Positions 2,668 to 11,297 of a DNA stretch of 18,716 nt are shown in pieces. This DNA comes from Brachybacterium sp. Its GTDB lineage: Bacteria > Actinomycetota > Actinomycetes > Actinomycetales > Dermabacteraceae. The position numbers and the translations under genes are program-made. The number at the start of each line of letters is the position of its first letter. The first letter of the stretch is position 1. The notes under the pieces are model-generated. The model was not told the DNA's origin and searched no databases. It saw only the letters and a list, made by a program, of their open reading frames with translations. Location of the stretch: contig DAHVRS010000332.1 in the NCBI GenBank assembly GCA_027322375.1, forward strand, positions 1 through 18,716. The letters run 5' to 3'.

Positions 2668-3606
2668 TCAGCCGATGCGGATGAAGGTCCAGCTGCCGGA
2701 GTAGATGTTGCGCTCAGAGGTGTCCACGCGGGAGTTGCCGGCGTCGACGAAGGTGTTGCCACCGGCGTAGATGCCGATGTGGCCGGGCTTGTAGACGAGG
2801 TCGCCGGGGCGGGCCTCGGAGCGCGGGATCACGGTGCCGGCAGCGGCCTGGCCGGCCGCACCGCGAGGCAGGCTGATGCCGTGCTGGGCGTAGACCCACT
2901 GCACGAACCCGGAGCAGTCCCAGCCCGACGGGGAGGTGCCGCCGTAGACGTAGGGGGTGCCGATGCCGGAGCGGGCCGTGGCGAGGATGGAGCTGCCCTT
3001 CGCGGCGGACGGAGCCGGCGAGGAGGACTCCTCCTTCTTCTTCGAGGAGGAGTCGGAGGACGAGGAGCTGGAGGAGCTCTCAGAGGAGGAGGACGAGGAG
3101 CTGGAGGAGCTCTCAGAGGAGGAGGACGAGGAGCTCTCGGAGTTGCTGGAGGTGCTGGAACGCTCCTCGGAACGGTTCGCGCGGTTGTCCTCGCGGGTCT
3201 CGGTCTGCTGCTCCTCCTGAGCGGCCTCCTCGGCGGCGGCCTCCTCAGCGGCCTGGCGCTCGGCCTCCGCAGCGGCCTCAGCGGCGGCGATCTCCTCCTC
3301 CGTGGGGCCCACCTCGATGGCGATGGTGCTGGCCTTGGGGGCGGGGGCGAGTGCCGGCTGAGCATCGGCCTCAGCGGTCTCGGCGGCGGGGATGCCCACG
3401 GCCGGGGCGACGACGGGGGTGAGCAGCGCCGGGGCTGCGGCGTCGGCCTGCGGGCCGTCGGCCTGGGTCTCGGCGGTCGCGGCGGAGGCGCCACCGATGA
3501 GGATCGCGGCGGCCATGGCGGCGCCGGCGCCTGCGCGGCTGACGTGGGTCACGGGGGTGACCGCACGCATGGCGCGGCGGTGAGTGTTCTGAGCGGTCTT
3601 CGACAC
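2668..3606 (-). CDS. Secreted NlpC/P60 peptidoglycan hydrolase with serine-rich linker
   Basis: This 312-residue exported protein has a long signal peptide: a basic n-region, the hydrophobic stretch AAMAAAILIGGASAATA and probable cleavage after A45. An Ala/Pro-rich segment follows, then an Ala/Glu-rich stretch likely to be coiled (about 101-135). A low-complexity linker at 149-188 is almost only Ser with scattered Glu/Asp. The C-terminal NlpC/P60 domain (about 204-312) has the catalytic Cys231 in WDCSGFVQWVYAQHG and His276 in PGHIGIYAGG. The third position is probably Asp288, which corresponds to the Glu used by RipA-type enzymes. The family cleaves D-Glu-mDAP-type bonds in stem peptides, typically for cell separation. 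The GTG start at 3606 has GGGAG seven nt upstream. It stands alone behind a 195-bp leader region. Confidence 0.9.
   Translation of the reverse strand: MSKTAQNTHRRAMRAVTPVTHVSRAGAGAAMAAAILIGGASAATAETQADGPQADAAAPALLTPVVAPAVGIPAAETAEADAQPALAPAPKASTIAIEVGPTEEEIAAAEAAAEAERQAAEEAAAEEAAQEEQQTETREDNRANRSEERSSTSSNSESSSSSSSESSSSSSSSSSESSSSSSSSDSSSKKKEESSSPAPSAAKGSSILATARSGIGTPYVYGGTSPSGWDCSGFVQWVYAQHGISLPRGAAGQAAAGTVIPRSEARPGDLVYKPGHIGIYAGGNTFVDAGNSRVDTSERNIYSGSWTFIRIG
3058..3140 (-). repeat. 33-bp tandem repeat encoding the Ser/Glu linker
   Basis: Two identical 33-bp units (3058-3090 and 3091-3123) are followed by a partial third unit from 3124. The unit is 11 codons, so copy changes keep the frame. 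It encodes the poly-Ser linker of the NlpC/P60 protein, and the plus strand here is almost all purine. Confidence 0.85.
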
Positions 3607-3801: not shown

Positions 3802-4521
3802 TTACCCGGCGGTGAGCGGGGTCACATGGAGCTGGTCTGCGACGATCTCCGTCACTGCGACCTCGCCCCCTTCGGGGCCGCGCAGCACGATGCTGTCCCC
3901 GACCCGCTCCGCGTCGAGGCGAGCCCCGGGGATCATGCCATGACCTGCAAGTTCACCGAGAAGTGCGACATCGCTCTGGACCCGCTCCCCGATCCGCTCT
4001 AGCCGGACCGCGAGGGACTGCCCGTCTTCGACGGCGGCGCTCAGCTCACGTTCGGGGTTGGCAGGGTCTTTACCCATGTCGGTGGCCTGGGTCTCCTCGA
4101 TCCCGAGGGCCGCGAGGCCGGGGATCGGGTTGCCATAGGGGTCGATGTACGGGGGCGACATCTTCTGGGCGAGACGCTTCTCGACCTCGAGGCTCATCAC
4201 GTGCTCCCAGCGGCACGCCTCCTCGTGCACGTGCGCGTAGTCCAGCCCGATGACATCCAGGAGGTGGCGCTCGGCCAGGCGGTGCTTGCGCATCACGTCG
4301 GTCGCGACGGAGTTCCCTTCGGGGGTGAGGCGGATGCGGCGCTGATCGTCGAGATGGAGCAGCCCGTCGCGCTCCATCCGGGCGACGGTCTGGGAGACGG
4401 TGGGGCCGGAGTGGCCCAGGCGCTCAGCGATCCTGGCCCGCATCGGGGCGATCCCGGCCTCATGGAGCTCGAACACCGTCTTCAGGTACATCTCGGTGGT
4501 GTCGATGAGATCTCCGGACAC
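3802..4521 (-). CDS. DtxR/IdeR-family iron-dependent transcriptional repressor
   Basis: The 239-residue protein has three parts: an N-terminal winged helix ([16 protein letters not shown], recognition helix in [18 protein letters not shown]), a dimerisation domain, and a C-terminal SH3/FeoA-like domain. The metal ligands align with DtxR at an offset of one residue: M11, C103, E106 and H107 at the primary site, H80, E84 and H99 at the ancillary site, and E179/Q182 (in GERVQ) from the third domain. The Cys and Glu pattern points to iron rather than manganese. The family binds DNA as Fe(II)-loaded dimers to repress uptake and siderophore genes and to activate storage. I chose the GTG at 4521 over the upstream ATG at 4554 because AGGAGG lies five nt before it and IdeR proteins begin there. 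No DtxR-box was recognised in the window. Confidence 0.93.
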
Positions 4522-4556
4522 AGGCCCCTCCTCGGTCAGTGCGACTGGCGCCATCC

Positions 4557-5601: not shown

Positions 5602-6771
5602 TCACTTTCCTGCGGCGGCGGCCTCGGCGACCTTCGCGGCGCCGCCGTCCATGGTGTCGGCCTGGGTGACGAGGGGGTGGGCGAAGTCCGCGAGGATCTT
5701 GCGACCCTCCTCGACGTTGTTGCCGTCGAGGCGCACGACGAGCGGCTTGGTGGCCGCGTCGCCGAGCTTCTGCAGGGCGCCGACGATGCCGTTGGCGACC
5801 GCGTCACAGGCGGTGATGCCGCCGAAGACGTTGACGAACACCGCGGAGACCTGCTCGTCGCCGAGGATGACGTCGAGGCCGTTGGCCATCACCTCAGCGC
5901 TCGCGCCGCCGCCGATGTCGAGGAAGTTCGCGGGCTTGACGCCGTGCTTCTCCCCCGCGTACGCGACGACGTCCAGGGTGGACATGACCAGGCCCGCGCC
6001 GTTGCCGATGATGCCGACCTCGCCGTCGAGCTTGACGTAGTTGAGGTCCAGGGCCTTGGCCTTGGTCTCCAGCGGGTCCTCGGAGGTGACGTCGACGAGG
6101 TCGGCGTGGCCCTCCTGGCGGAACTCGGCGTTGTCGTCGAGGGTGATCTTGCCGTCCAGCGCGACGATGTCGCCGGCGCCGGTCTTCACCAGGGGGTTCA
6201 CCTCGACGAGGGTCGCGTCCTCCTCGCGGTAGACGTCCCACAGCTTCTGCAGCACGGGGGCGACCTTCGCACCGGTCTCGGCGTCGAACTTCGCGGCCTC
6301 GACGATCTCCTTCGCCTTGGCCTCATCGATCCCGACGTTGGGGTCGACGGCCACGCGCGCCAGGGCCTCGGGCCGCTCGACAGCGAGCTGCTCGATCTCC
6401 ATGCCGCCCTCGACCGAGCACATGGCCAGGTAGTTGCGGTTCGCGCGGTCCAGCAGGAGCGAGAAGTAGTACTCCTCGGCGATATCCGCGCCGGCCGCGA
6501 TCATCACGCGGTGCACGGTGTGGCCCTTGATGTCCATACCGAGGATCTCGGAGGCCTTCTGCTCCGCCTCCTCGGGCGACTTGGCGATCTTCACGCCACC
6601 GGCCTTGCCACGCCCACCGGTCTTCACCTGGGCCTTGACGACGACGACCGGGGTGCCGAGCTTCTCGGCGCCGGCCTTGGCTGCGGCCGGGTCCTCCGCG
6701 ACGACTCCTCCGAGCACGGGCACGCCGTGCTTCTCGAAGAGATCGCGGGCCTGGTACTCATACAGGTCCAC
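5602..6771 (-). CDS. sucC: Succinyl-CoA synthetase (succinate-CoA ligase) subunit beta
   Basis: The chosen GTG at 6771 begins with the standard N-terminus [19 protein letters not shown] and gives 389 residues, the family's usual size. It has GAGAGGA about ten nt upstream. The frame continues upstream to 6843 but encodes nothing SucC-like there. The protein has an ATP-grasp fold with the glycine-rich loop [12 protein letters not shown] (50-61), EVNPLV with metal-binding residues, and the CoA-ligase signature [26 protein letters not shown] and [12 protein letters not shown]. It binds the nucleotide and contacts the phosphohistidine of SucD. It is the first gene of the sucCD operon. A TACGCT -10 box about 77 nt upstream (6848-6853) could drive it. 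Confidence 0.97.
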
Positions 6772-6847
6772 GGGGTGCTTTTCCTCTCGATGTCGGCAGT
6801 GGGCGGCAGGCCGCACTGGCCTCGATGCCACCCCTGGGAACACCGCC

Positions 6848-6862
6848 AGCGTAACGCGTCAC
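6848..6862 (-). promoter_or_regulatory. Candidate sucC -10 box with overlapping imperfect palindrome
   Basis: On the minus strand TACGCT (6848-6853) fits an actinobacterial -10. It is overlapped by the 12-bp GTAACGCGTCAC (6851-6862), palindromic except for one base pair, a position suited to a repressor. The remaining 267-bp gap (6772-7038) shows nothing else that I can name. Confidence 0.3.
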
Positions 6863-7026
6863 ACGCACGGGCCATGACCGCAGGGGCAGGGTGCGAGGGG
6901 ACTCACGTCCGCTCCACCGGACAGTCGCCGACGTGTGCGGAAAGCGCCTCTCCCGATTCTGGCCTGCTCGCGCACCCTCCCGACGGACGCACTGGGCGCT
7001 CGGGGCGTCCGCCCAGGTGCGCGGTC

Positions 7027-7412: not shown

Positions 7413-7985
7413 ATGGCCGACTGGAAGACGTACGCGAAAGCGGCGCGCAACACTGCGCGTCGGCAGGCCCCCGAGGCGCGCGATGCGGCCCGACGAGCGG
7501 GCGATCGTGCGAGCGGCTATGTGCGCGCCGCCGGGCGCGCGGTCGACGAGGGCTGGCGCGAGGACGGCCGCCCCGGCGGCTCCTCCCGCAGCGCCGAGGA
7601 GCCCCGCTCCGCCGGCAGCTCCCGCAGCACCGACAGCTCTGGCACCGACGACGGGTCGCGCCAGCGCGGCGCGGCGCCTCGCCGCGTGACCACCGAGTCC
7701 CTCAGCCGCGACGCCGCCGCGTACTACACGGTCGCGAGCCGCCGGGTGCAGCGCGCGAACATCATCCCGCGCCTCCTGCGCGCACTGCGCGATGCGCTGC
7801 TGATCGGGGTCTCGCTCCTGGCGATCTGGGCGGTGCTCGCCGCCGCCGGGCTGCCGATCCCCTTCTCCACGGTGCTGCTCGTGGTCGGCGTGATCGTCGC
7901 GGCGAGCTTCGGCGCAGGCGTGTACGCGCAGTGGAAGCGGAGCCAGGAGGCCTTCGAGGCGGCCCCGGACCCGCGCGAGAGGTGA
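7413..7985 (+). CDS. Two-helix membrane protein of unknown function
   Basis: The 190-residue protein starts MADWKTYAKAARNTARRQAP. It has a basic, Ala/Arg-rich helical region to about residue 45 and a Ser/Gly/Arg-rich linker to about 90. A segment SRDAAAYYTVASRRVQRANI leads into two membrane helices: about 128-146 (LLIGVSLLAIWAVLAAAG) and 150-170 (FSTVLLVVGVIVAASFGAGV). A short charged tail closes the protein. GAGGAG (7402-7407) lies five nt before the ATG, so this start is well supported. It is 14 bp downstream of the preceding membrane-protein gene and almost certainly co-transcribed. I recognise no enzymatic motif. The amphipathic basic N-terminus could bind membrane or nucleic acid, but that is speculation. 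Confidence 0.75.
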   Translation: MADWKTYAKAARNTARRQAPEARDAARRAGDRASGYVRAAGRAVDEGWREDGRPGGSSRSAEEPRSAGSSRSTDSSGTDDGSRQRGAAPRRVTTESLSRDAAAYYTVASRRVQRANIIPRLLRALRDALLIGVSLLAIWAVLAAAGLPIPFSTVLLVVGVIVAASFGAGVYAQWKRSQEAFEAAPDPRER

Positions 7986-8154: not shown

Positions 8155-8225
8155 GGGAAGGTCTCTGCCCTGCCCTCCCGACCGGTCGCCCGCCGCCCTG
8201 GCCGGGGCATCGTCCCGAGGTGGTC

Positions 8226-11200
8226 ATGCCCTCCCTGCCCTCGCCCTCCACCCGCCCCGCCGATGCCGGGCCCTCGGCGCTGGACCGCGGTGCATGGCAT
8301 CGCCGCGCCTCCCGCCCGATCCTGGCGTGGATGGTGGCGCTCGTCGTCGTGGTGATCGTCCATCGCTGGCTGCCGCAATCGCGCTGGCTGATGGTGCACA
8401 TGGTGACGCTGGGACTGATCACCACCTCGATCCTCGTGTGGGGTCAGCACTTCACCGAGGCGCTGCTGAAGGTGCGGCTCGAAGAGGAGACGCGCAAGCG
8501 CCAGCTGCGGCGGATCCACCTGCTCACCGCCGGCATCCTCGTGACGATCGCGGGGATGCTCCCGGCCTGGCCGTGGCTCGTGGTGCTCGGCGCGCTGATG
8601 GTCTCCGCGGCGCTGGTCTGGTACGCGATGGCGCTCGGCGCGCAGGTGAAGGCCGCGATCGCCCCGCGCTTCCGGTTCACGGTCACCGCCTACATCGCCG
8701 CCGCGTCCCTCATCCCCGTCGGCGCGACGCTCGGCGCGATCATGGCGTTCGGGCCGGGTGAGCCGTGGCAGGGACGCCTGCTGCTCGCGCACCAGGTCGT
8801 GAACCTGCTGGGCTTCGTGGGGATCACGGTCAGCGGCACGCTGCTGACGCTCTGGCCCACCGTGCTGCGCACGAAGATCGAGCTGGTCGCCGCGCAGCGC
8901 GCCGCGAAGGGACTGCAGGGCATGTTCCTGGCGGTGCTGGGCGCGACCGTCGCGGCGCTGACCGGCTCCGCCCTCCTCGGCGCGGTGCTCGTCGCGATCT
9001 ACTTTGCCTGCTTCGGCTGGCTCGCCGTGACCCTCGTGCGGCTCGCGGTGCGCTCCGCCCGGCAGGAGCGCAACACCCCGCTATCGCTGTTCCCGGTCCT
9101 CTCGATCGCCGCGGGCGTGCTCTGGTTCGCCGGCGCCGTCGCCGCGCTGGGGGTCATGTGGTGGGGCTCGGCCGATGCGCAGCTGTCCGCGTCCCTGGTC
9201 GCGGCCGATGCGCAGAAGCTCACCGTCCCCTTCGTCGCCGGGTTCCTGCTGCAGGTGCTGTTCGGGGCGATGAGCCATCTGCTGCCGGTGAGCCTGCGCG
9301 GCGGGCCCCGCTCCACGAAGGCGGCGCTGGAGATGATGAGCCGCGGCGCGGTCGTGCGCGTGGTCGGCGTCAACCTCGCCCTCGCGCTGCTCGTGCTCGC
9401 CTCGGCCGAGGCCGGCTGGGCCGATGCAGTGTTCTCCGCGCTCACGCTCGGCACCGGGGATGTGGCCGATTTCGGCTCCCTCTCCCGCGTGCTCGTCTCC
9501 CTGCTCGCTTTCATCGCGCTCGTGTCCTTCGTGGTGCTGATGATCCTCGGGGTGAGGGCCAGCATCCGCAACCGCAGCGTCGCACTGCCCACCCCGACCG
9601 GGGTCCCGGGCCCCGGCACGTCGGCCGACGGGCTGCCCGGCACGACCTCGAGCTCCTCGGCCGACGGCCGGCCCTCGCTCCTGGCGGGCACCCCGTCGGG
9701 CGCCAGCGCTGCGGCCGGCGGACCCGCGGGTGCCCCGTCGGGCACGCGCTCCGCCGCAGCGGAGACCTCCCCCGCCCGGGTGCGGGCTCGCGTCGCCGCC
9801 GAGGAGCGGCGCATGGACCGTCGCTCCCTCACCGGGGCGCTGGTGGGCATCGGCTCCGTGCTCGGCGTCTCCGCGCTCGGCGCGTCCCTGGACCGGGCCG
9901 GCGGTGCCCTGCCCGGTACCGGCTCGGGCACGACGGGCACTGGCACCGCGCGGGCGGTCACGCCCACCGGGGAGACCACCACGATCGCGGTGAGCATGGC
10001 AGACATGCGCTTCACCCCCGACCGGCTCGAGGTCCCCGCAGGGAACACCCTGGTGGTGGAGCTGCGCAATGACGATCCGCAGGAGGTGCACGACCTCGTC
10101 CTCGCCACCGGTGTCACCTCCGGCCGCCTGCAGCCGGGCGATGCGACCACGCTCGACGCGGGAGTGATCACCGAGGATGCCGAGGGCTGGTGCTCGATCG
10201 TCGGCCACCGTGCGATGGGCATGGTCCTCACCGTCGTCGCTGTCGGCGCGCCTGCCGCGACCGCGCCCGCGGAAAGCGGGGACAGCAGGGCGACGACCGA
10301 TGAGCTCGCCCCTGTGCGCGCCGATATGCAGGCCGCGCCCGGCGCCGGGTACACGGTGCGCGATGCGCGCCTGCCGGAGGCCGCGGGCATGGATCAGCGC
10401 CTCACCCTCGAGGTGCAGGACCTGCCTGTCGAGCTCGCGCCCGGCGTGGGCATGGACGCGATGACCTACGAGGGCACCGTGGTGGGGCCGGTGCTGCGCT
10501 CCGAGATCGGGGCACGCCTCACGATCGACCTCGTCAACAACGGCATGATGGGGCACTCCCTGGACCTGCACGCGGGCCGGGTCGCGCCTGACGAGGTGAT
10601 GCGCACGATCCCGCCCGGGGAGAGCCTCACCTACGCGATCACCACCGAGCACGCCGGGATCTGGCTCTATCACTGCTCGTCGATGCCGATGACGGTGCAC
10701 CTCACCGCAGGGATGATCGGTGCACTCGTGGTACCGCCGGCGGGGCTCGCGCCCACGGACCGGGAGTACGTGCTGGTCCAGTCCGAGCACTACCTGGTCC
10801 CCGTCGGCGCGCCCGGCTACGAGGACTCGATGCACGAGGACTCGGCGCAGCACGGCATGCAGGGCCACGGCATGAAGGGCCACGACAGGACCACCCCGGA
10901 CCTTCCGGAGAACATCCACCCGGTGAGCACCGAGAAGATCACGGCCGAGCGCCCCGACTTCACGGTCTTCAACGGGCACGCCACCCAGTACGTCCACGCG
11001 CCGCTCGAGGCGAAGGTGGGCGAGCGGGTGCGGCTGTGGGTGCTCGCCGCGGGGCCCTCCCGTGGGATCTCCTTCCACGTCGTCGGTGGAGTGTTCGACA
11101 CGGTCTTCAAGGAGGGCGAGTACCTGCTGCGGCCCGAGAACGAGACCGGGGGCGGCTCCCAGGCGCTCGATCTCGCTGCCGCGCAGGGCGGGTTCGTGGA

Positions 11201-11297
11201 GCTCGTGTTCGACGAGCCCGGCACCTACACCGCCGTGAACCACTCCTTCGTGGAGATGGAGCGAGGCGCTCGAGCACTGATCAAGGTCACTGCCTGA
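8226..11297 (+). CDS. Membrane-anchored copper nitrite reductase fusion: 12-helix domain + cupredoxin + NirK
   Basis: The protein has 1023 residues. The ATG is preceded by GAGG at five nt and preferred over the GTG at 8220. Residues 31-443 form about twelve membrane helices with His58 (helix 2), His189 (helix 6) and His351 (helix 10), the helices that carry heme/copper ligands in heme-copper oxidases. Residues 445-530 are a Pro/Gly/Ser linker, followed by MDRRSLTGAL and a thirteenth helix (about 535-552). A one-domain cupredoxin (about 585-675) has type 1 ligands H622, C656, H661 and M666. The NirK module (about 715-1023) has type 1 H777, C817, H825, M830, type 2 H782, H816, H1006, and catalytic D780 and H951. 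The C-x7-H-x4-M spacing is AniA-like (class II). Expected reaction: nitrite to nitric oxide outside the membrane. A His/Met-rich loop lies at 869-886. No denitrification partner is nearby. Another multicopper oxidase activity remains possible. Confidence 0.88.
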   Translation: MPSLPSPSTRPADAGPSALDRGAWHRRASRPILAWMVALVVVVIVHRWLPQSRWLMVHMVTLGLITTSILVWGQHFTEALLKVRLEEETRKRQLRRIHLLTAGILVTIAGMLPAWPWLVVLGALMVSAALVWYAMALGAQVKAAIAPRFRFTVTAYIAAASLIPVGATLGAIMAFGPGEPWQGRLLLAHQVVNLLGFVGITVSGTLLTLWPTVLRTKIELVAAQRAAKGLQGMFLAVLGATVAALTGSALLGAVLVAIYFACFGWLAVTLVRLAVRSARQERNTPLSLFPVLSIAAGVLWFAGAVAALGVMWWGSADAQLSASLVAADAQKLTVPFVAGFLLQVLFGAMSHLLPVSLRGGPRSTKAALEMMSRGAVVRVVGVNLALALLVLASAEAGWADAVFSALTLGTGDVADFGSLSRVLVSLLAFIALVSFVVLMILGVRASIRNRSVALPTPTGVPGPGTSADGLPGTTSSSSADGRPSLLAGTPSGASAAAGGPAGAPSGTRSAAAETSPARVRARVAAEERRMDRRSLTGALVGIGSVLGVSALGASLDRAGGALPGTGSGTTGTGTARAVTPTGETTTIAVSMADMRFTPDRLEVPAGNTLVVELRNDDPQEVHDLVLATGVTSGRLQPGDATTLDAGVITEDAEGWCSIVGHRAMGMVLTVVAVGAPAATAPAESGDSRATTDELAPVRADMQAAPGAGYTVRDARLPEAAGMDQRLTLEVQDLPVELAPGVGMDAMTYEGTVVGPVLRSEIGARLTIDLVNNGMMGHSLDLHAGRVAPDEVMRTIPPGESLTYAITTEHAGIWLYHCSSMPMTVHLTAGMIGALVVPPAGLAPTDREYVLVQSEHYLVPVGAPGYEDSMHEDSAQHGMQGHGMKGHDRTTPDLPENIHPVSTEKITAERPDFTVFNGHATQYVHAPLEAKVGERVRLWVLAAGPSRGISFHVVGGVFDTVFKEGEYLLRPENETGGGSQALDLAAAQGGFVELVFDEPGTYTAVNHSFVEMERGARALIKVTA
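9801..9815 (+). promoter_or_regulatory. Internal ribosome binding site and ATG inside the nitrite reductase fusion
   Basis: GAGGAG (9801-9806) is six nt before an in-frame ATG at 9813 (Met530), which begins MDRRSLTGAL and the internal hydrophobic helix. Initiation here would give a 494-residue exported protein of cupredoxin plus NirK with a twin-arginine-like signal. Codons for Glu-Glu explain the motif equally well, so function is a hypothesis. Confidence 0.4.

Follow-up and report, generated by a model that had tools for sequence, protein, structure and literature searches.

How does a copper nitrite reductase (NirK) that is built into a membrane protein obtain its electrons? This question is raised by an open reading frame on the forward strand (positions 8226–11297) of an 18,716-nucleotide stretch of DNA from Brachybacterium sp. 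(assembly GCA_027322375.1, contig DAHVRS010000332.1), the whole of which is referred to here as the window. The frame runs uninterrupted from the ATG at 8226 through the stop codon at 11297 and encodes a protein of 1,023 residues, in which a membrane domain, a one-domain cupredoxin and a NirK core follow one another; an in-frame GTG at 8220 is a possible alternative start that would add two residues. From its sequence and its model, the protein is read here as a dissimilatory nitrite reductase of the copper type to which a membrane module for electron input is tethered, an assignment to which we give about an even chance.

The architecture is shared by many proteins. When 8000 candidates were scored, 878 proteins matched the window protein at E 0.001, which rules out a recent oddity of a single genome, and many of the best 120 of these 878 align over nearly the full chain at 45–81% identity, so that the domain arrangement is no chance pattern. 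Among the matches listed, the closest named relative is the protein of B. saurashtrense (Brachybacterium saurashtrense), with 81% identity. Two alignments were used: 116 of the best 120 homologues, aligned full-length and dominated by Brachybacterium and Dermabacter, and a separate, more diverse set of 57 fused proteins, the named sources of which are Brachybacterium, Dermabacter, Cutibacterium, Acidipropionibacterium, Enemella, Tessaracoccus, Arthrobacter, Rothia, Dietzia, Corynebacterium, Georgenia, Sanguibacter and Nocardioides. The database search for the domain order that the original prediction had proposed as a check has returned fused homologues in many genera of the Actinomycetota.

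The two copper modules are complete, as had been predicted, and the residue numbers originally given for H622, C656, H661, M666, D780 and H951 are correct. The cupredoxin comprises residues 582–674 (9969–10247) according to Pfam (Cupredoxin_1 at 581–644, E 3.9e-9) and the AlphaFold2 model, and its type 1 copper set, H622, C656, H661 and M666 (10089–10223), is identical in all 116 aligned homologues and conserved in all 57 diverse fused proteins. The NirK core, residues 708–1023 (10347–11294), was delimited by profile and structure comparison; Cu-oxidase_3 matches at 734–838 (E 5.5e-9) and the NirK family TIGR02376 covers 725–1022 (E 4.3e-40), with a score of 138 bits that lies under the curated cut-off of 296 bits, a database threshold, while the residues and the fold are those of NirK. 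The core superimposes on those of AniA and 6the with root-mean-square deviations (r.m.s.d.s) of 2.1–2.4 and shows the two-domain cupredoxin fold of known NirK enzymes. The full type 1, type 2 and catalytic sets are present, with roles that we take to be as follows: H777, C817, H825 and M830 bind the type 1 copper, H782 and H816 bind the type 2 copper and D780 is AspCAT (together 10554–10715), H951 (11076–11078) is HisCAT and H1006 (11241–11243) is the third type 2 ligand, presumably supplied by the neighbouring subunit. With the exception of M830, all of these residues are identical in the 116 homologues and in the 57 diverse proteins; M830 is methionine in 115 homologues and leucine in one, and is conserved in 52 of the 57 diverse proteins, with leucine in the other five.

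The membrane domain comprises residues 21–451 (8286–9578), in which AlphaFold2 places 12 long helices, as had been estimated from the sequence, and two short ones (361–371 and 397–406). The arrangement of the 12 helices is that of subunit I of the heme-copper oxidase superfamily. Two histidines, H58 on transmembrane helix (TM) 2 (8397–8399) and H189 on TM6 (8790–8792), both close to the outer face by helix count, are essentially invariant: H189 is identical in all 116 homologues, H58 is histidine in 115 with a gap in one, and both are conserved in all 57 diverse fused proteins. Heme-copper oxidases carry six ligand histidines in subunit I. Of the TM2 and TM10 pair that binds the low-spin heme in oxidases, H58 could be one member; of the second-metal site, formed by one TM6 histidine and a TM7 pair, H189 could be one ligand, and TM7 (220–246) is free of histidine. 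In NO (nitric oxide) reductases the second-metal and proximal-heme ligands are a TM7 pair and a TM10 HxH motif, both of which are visible in L144, a quinol-NO-reductase-type sequence from Brachybacterium. With the TM7 and TM10 ligands missing, a NirK fusion with a functional oxidase or NO reductase was ruled out. The original description of the domain as heme-copper-oxidase-like holds for the fold and not for the TM7 and TM10 ligands. Against cbb3 CcoN and cNOR NorB, which carry the six-ligand set where the membrane domain has two invariant histidines, identity is 7–11% and no profile link was found with shallow profiles. In 14 members of the membrane domain Pfam reported no COX1 match, in a search in which the HMMER filters discard most weak matches; Pfam and NCBIfam name no family for the domain, the matches below E 0.1 being short and weak. 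Viral folds gave no match to it at E 0.001, and three weak SemiSWEET matches (E 0.01) in a profile search of PDB sequences were taken as chance. We regard the apparently degenerate oxidase fold, as seen in the model and the alignments, as a new point.

A second line of evidence comes from genomes in which the membrane domain is a gene of its own. In a survey of 396 genomes of the phylum, with the domain called at E 1e-10, 53 genomes carry it. Eight matches are plainly fused (frames of 867–1219 residues), and most of the others lie in frames of about 410–640 residues. For 40 of the 52 non-fused matches, flanking sequence of up to 7 kb in either direction was analysed, ten of the weakest matches together with G353:C55 and G370:C340 being excluded. 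A strong NirK gene, defined as at least 229 bits, with the cut placed by eye where the scores drop from 229 to 165, directly adjoins the domain in seven of the 40 regions, and all seven of these partners retain the type 2 and catalytic residues in their NirK regions. Region L061 has four consecutive genes on one strand: NirK, a short cupredoxin whose start resembles that of a lipoprotein, the 12-helix gene and a regulator of the Rrf2 type; in L062 a cupredoxin is paired with the 12-helix gene and NirK is divergent. A cupredoxin alone is found in two further regions (L040 and L056) and a doubtful one in L052 (E 0.01). Counted per genome, the domain and a strong NirK occur together in 39, the domain only in 14, NirK only in 13 and neither in 330; after removal of the fused genomes the counts are 31, 14, 13 and 330 (p 8e-25), several of the genomes being incomplete. 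The unfused genomes belong to 17 families, and in 15 of these at least one genome has NirK. In a midpoint-rooted tree of 94 domains, from which three of the 40 stand-alone regions were omitted because they hold fewer than 300 domain residues, the 57 fused rows form one clade, with two label changes; five Cutibacterium proteins other than the Propionibacterium acnes NirK lie in this clade, and so does a single stand-alone row, L038. We show from these sequences that the separate 12-helix protein and NirK occur together throughout the phylum and that the fused forms constitute a single clade; the simplest reading of the tree would be a single fusion followed by one case in which the partner was lost. 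The occurrence of a separate 12-helix gene beside NirK appears to be a new point.

Several further features were observed around the stand-alone genes. Multicopper oxidases with a cupredoxin domain lie near the 12-helix gene in two of the 40 regions, L044 (8196–9809, reverse strand) and L047 (5063–6376, forward strand); they score 70 and 76 bits, as other multicopper oxidases do, and were not counted as NirK. The 12-helix protein may therefore also serve other copper enzymes. Related regulator genes occur near the 12-helix gene in L040, L042, L060, L061 and L068 (Rrf2-type in L042, the one tested), for which NO- or iron-responsive control is possible. Just 5' of the 12-helix gene of L065 (at 6899), a forward-strand gene (5691–6893) encodes a hydrophobic protein of 401 residues that looks NnrS-like by eye and has no Pfam match at E 0.1; L060, L064 and L071 also have relatives of it close to the 12-helix gene. 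In the partner NirKs of L059 and L062 glutamine takes the place of the axial methionine in the alignment of the core type 1 site, as reported for Thermus scotoductus NirK, and in those of L051 and L068 a cupredoxin is fused C-terminal rather than N-terminal to NirK, behind the core as in the T. scotoductus enzyme. The 12-helix and NirK parts lie in different frames in L124 and L125, through sequencing error or decay. Two Dermabacteraceae genomes (L140 and L141) hold a 12-helix gene of 435 residues, with no NirK match among the frames of more than 300 residues in the surrounding stretch, shorter frames lying outside the search.

Between the membrane domain and the cupredoxin, the window protein has two features that the original prediction did not contain: a 13th hydrophobic helix (532–558; 9819–9899), which by the inferred topology brings the remainder of the protein to the outside, and a twin arginine, R532-R533 (9819–9824), at its start. 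The preceding linker (452–531; 9579–9818), predicted to be cytoplasmic by helix count, is mostly of low model confidence apart from a short helix at 516–528, and is unconserved; the twin arginine is invariant in all 116 near relatives. For the linker analysis, four of 181 proteins with an incomplete hit set were dropped and identical linkers were counted once, which left 156. The arginine pair is present in 31 of 31 fused rows of the Dermabacteraceae and Propionibacteriaceae (L139 being assigned there via the tree) and in just 12 of the 26 fused rows of other lineages. The median Kyte–Doolittle value of helix 13 is 1.61 in the former group, in four rows of which the script picked a wrong stretch, and 2.19 in the latter, where it is 2.23 with the pair and 2.15 without it; since the pair makes no difference within the other rows, the weaker helix is a lineage trait. 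The window helix, at 1.76, lies below nine of the 12 helices of its own protein (barely so for TM10) and above TM2, TM3 and TM7, and on the biological hydrophobicity scale TM1, TM3, TM7 and TM10 are worse. At least one lysine or arginine lies near the outer end of helix 13 in 108 of the 115 linkers scored as carrying the pair.

An even number of helices followed by a conserved twin arginine is the layout of proteins inserted by both the general secretory (Sec) and the twin-arginine translocation (Tat) systems. Further marks of such proteins are a helix of low hydrophobicity behind the motif and a positive charge at its outer end, the second of which is shared by most of the linkers scored as carrying the pair. 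The actinobacterial Rieske protein and Sco3746 share with the window protein an even set of helices, a twin arginine, one helix and an outer cofactor domain, but have two or four helices before the motif instead of 12 (PMC5449189, available part); the words copper, nitrite and cupredoxin are absent from the main text of that paper. In the Brachybacterium-type lineage, Sec would insert the 12 helices and Tat would export the copper domains, using the internal twin arginine that precedes helix 13. Because arginines that flank a helix on its inner side may also be ordinary topology signals, this route, drawn by analogy, is a prediction. We consider the internal twin arginine itself, as found in the alignments, to be a new point.

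Taken together, the fold, the paired invariant histidines on the fitting side and the lasting association with NirK and cupredoxin suggest that the membrane domain supplies electrons. It would take up these electrons within the membrane, with menaquinol as the simplest candidate donor; H58 and/or H189 would bind one or two b-type hemes that relay the electrons to the cupredoxin on the outer side; the cupredoxin would pass them to the core type 1 copper of the same chain or of an adjacent subunit of the NirK trimer; and from there they would reach the type 2 copper, where nitrite would be reduced to NO. The oxidase fold would then serve as an electron entry and not as an end point at which O2 or NO is reduced. 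We judge this path, from quinol through heme, cupredoxin and NirK core to nitrite, about equally likely to be right or wrong on the sequences and models. The self-contained membrane-to-nitrite route of the original prediction is accordingly supported in part: its modules, its conserved histidines and its NirK association speak for it, its thin ligand set against it.

A number of observations weigh against this path. Two invariant histidines are a thin ligand set; with H75 and H351 unconserved, no histidine in TM7 and no HxH in TM10, a normal oxidase heme pair is impossible. H351, the sole histidine of TM10, is histidine in four of the 51 stand-alone rows that cover it and in seven of the 57 fused rows. 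With shallow profiles, the hhalign probability was 0.6% against six COX1 sequences and 0.5% against three quinol NO reductases; the best stretch of the COX1 comparison, at 0.6%, put H189 on the first histidine of the oxidase TM10 HxH and was not used. No NirK-like or confident cupredoxin match was found in 29 of the 40 stand-alone regions, some of which end at contig ends, 14 of the 53 domain-bearing genomes lack a strong NirK, and the p value for co-occurrence is uncorrected for shared ancestry. The full-chain model has a pTM (predicted template modelling score) of 0.66, which leaves the relative placement of the domains unsure. Finally, in both solved Hyphomicrobium enzymes the copper of the N-terminal cupredoxin lies about 24 Å from the core copper (PMC7201279, available part).

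The thin ligand set leads to the alternative that survives best, which we nevertheless consider unlikely: the membrane domain would lie off the electron path, as an anchor for NirK or as a copper loader in which H58 and H189 form a copper relay, and a separate donor would reduce the enzyme. Two invariant histidines, compared with six in the oxidases, are too few for the usual hemes, and the co-occurrence with NirK and the cupredoxin neighbours are equally compatible with copper loading. A plain anchor, however, would not retain two helix histidines everywhere, together with R148, Y156, Q343 and W300 in nearly all sequences of the domain, nor would it occur as a separate 12-helix gene; as to a loader, Pfam reported no copper-transport family in the 14 members.

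The Hyphomicrobium distance bears on a second alternative, to which we assign a rather low probability, namely that the N-terminal cupredoxin is off the path, as has been argued for Hyphomicrobium NirK, with a separate carrier reducing the core and the fused parts being regulatory or structural. A Hyphomicrobium mutant of that copper was more active (PMC4770552, available part). The three-domain NirK of Hyphomicrobium denitrificans (2dv6, 6tfd and 6tfo) likewise has a type 1 cupredoxin N-terminal to the core, and each of its two domains aligns to the window model; it lacks a membrane part, and the relative placement differs, with an r.m.s.d. of 14 over both domains. Against this alternative, the four cupredoxin ligands are kept in every one of the 57 fused proteins, separate cupredoxin genes adjoin the unfused membrane gene, and pulse-radiolysis data on a Hyphomicrobium enzyme have been interpreted as electron transfer into the core of the adjacent monomer (PMC7201279, available part). 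By analogy, transfer to a neighbouring monomer is possible in the window enzyme. T. scotoductus NirK also has a tethered cupredoxin as its presumed donor, but it is C-terminal and about 14 Å from the core copper (PMC6400189, available part); the word 'transmembrane' is absent from the text of that paper.

The remaining alternative, that the membrane domain is an NnrS-like or NO-reductase-like module binding, sensing or removing NO made next to it, is improbable, since the TM7 pair and TM10 HxH of NO reductases are absent and Pfam reported no NnrS match in the 14 members. A search for NnrS itself in 149 genomes of the phylum sample gave one weak match and none above the cut-off, with the control positive in 0 of 14, and is a weak negative.

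Electron input through the membrane domain would give a function to an architecture that has been described before. The order of membrane part, cupredoxin and NirK is already known from Propionibacterium (Cutibacterium) acnes, whose NirK of about 900 residues has a cupredoxin and a predicted membrane domain of about 400 residues, the function of which is described as unknown (Helen et al., 2016; PMC4770552, available part), and shows there no difference in kind from the window protein. The original statement that related actinobacterial copper enzymes with a membrane part exist is borne out by this enzyme. According to the same available text, all of the actinobacterial NirKs studied have a cupredoxin, and the membrane part is missing from some of them; the fold, the histidines, stand-alone genes and an internal twin arginine were not found in that text. 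Titles and abstract openings in partial listings of the open-licence literature yielded no oxidase fold, stand-alone gene, twin arginine or mechanism for a membrane-domain NirK. Tentatively, and with more doubt than for the path itself, we propose a new class: an oxidase fold without an O2 or NO centre that would have been reused across the Actinomycetota as a quinol-oxidizing, cupredoxin-reducing unit, mainly for nitrite reduction; it would originally have been encoded on its own and subsequently joined with its partners in a single-chain quinol-to-nitrite enzyme, assembled by Sec and then Tat.

If the electron path is correct, the fold of an oxidase has been put to new use as a point of electron entry, and NO is made with electrons taken directly from the membrane pool by a large group of actinobacterial NirKs, among them those of Cutibacterium, Acidipropionibacterium, Brachybacterium, Dietzia and Arthrobacter. 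The purpose of the N-terminal cupredoxin in some NirKs has been an open structural question, the Hyphomicrobium copper being too distant from the core (PMC7201279, available part); with the window cupredoxin placed between a membrane domain and the core, its role becomes directly testable. Within the genus, 17 of 24 Brachybacterium genomes, that of the window included, have the membrane domain, in frames of at least 927 residues in 15 of them and shorter ones in G416 and G417. A second COX1 match, of the quinol-NO-reductase kind, was found in three of the 17 (L144 was inspected and the other two were aligned to it). In the other 14, some of them incomplete, no COX1-superfamily NO reductase was found, and for this reason the membrane-domain NirK may be a net source of NO in Brachybacterium. 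A weak COX1 fragment of 22 bits in the genome of the window (G000:C500:2607-2906, reverse strand) is possibly part of an oxidase or NO reductase. Nitrate reductase scored above the cut-off in 11 of the 17 genomes with the gene (and in a twelfth, G417, in pieces below it) and in four of the seven without it; as it is present in both groups, there is no link with the gene.

In the window, which belongs to a draft genome of 74% completeness, the gene is apparently solitary. Its 5' neighbour (7413–7985) encodes a 190-residue protein without a family match, its 3' neighbour is a convergent PcrA helicase gene, and a tRNA scan found none. Further upstream, on the reverse strand, lie a gene for a DtxR-like metal-dependent repressor (3802–4554), slightly below the NCBIfam cut-off (256 versus 290 bits), and one for an NlpC/P60 protein that contains a long serine-rich region (2671–3606).

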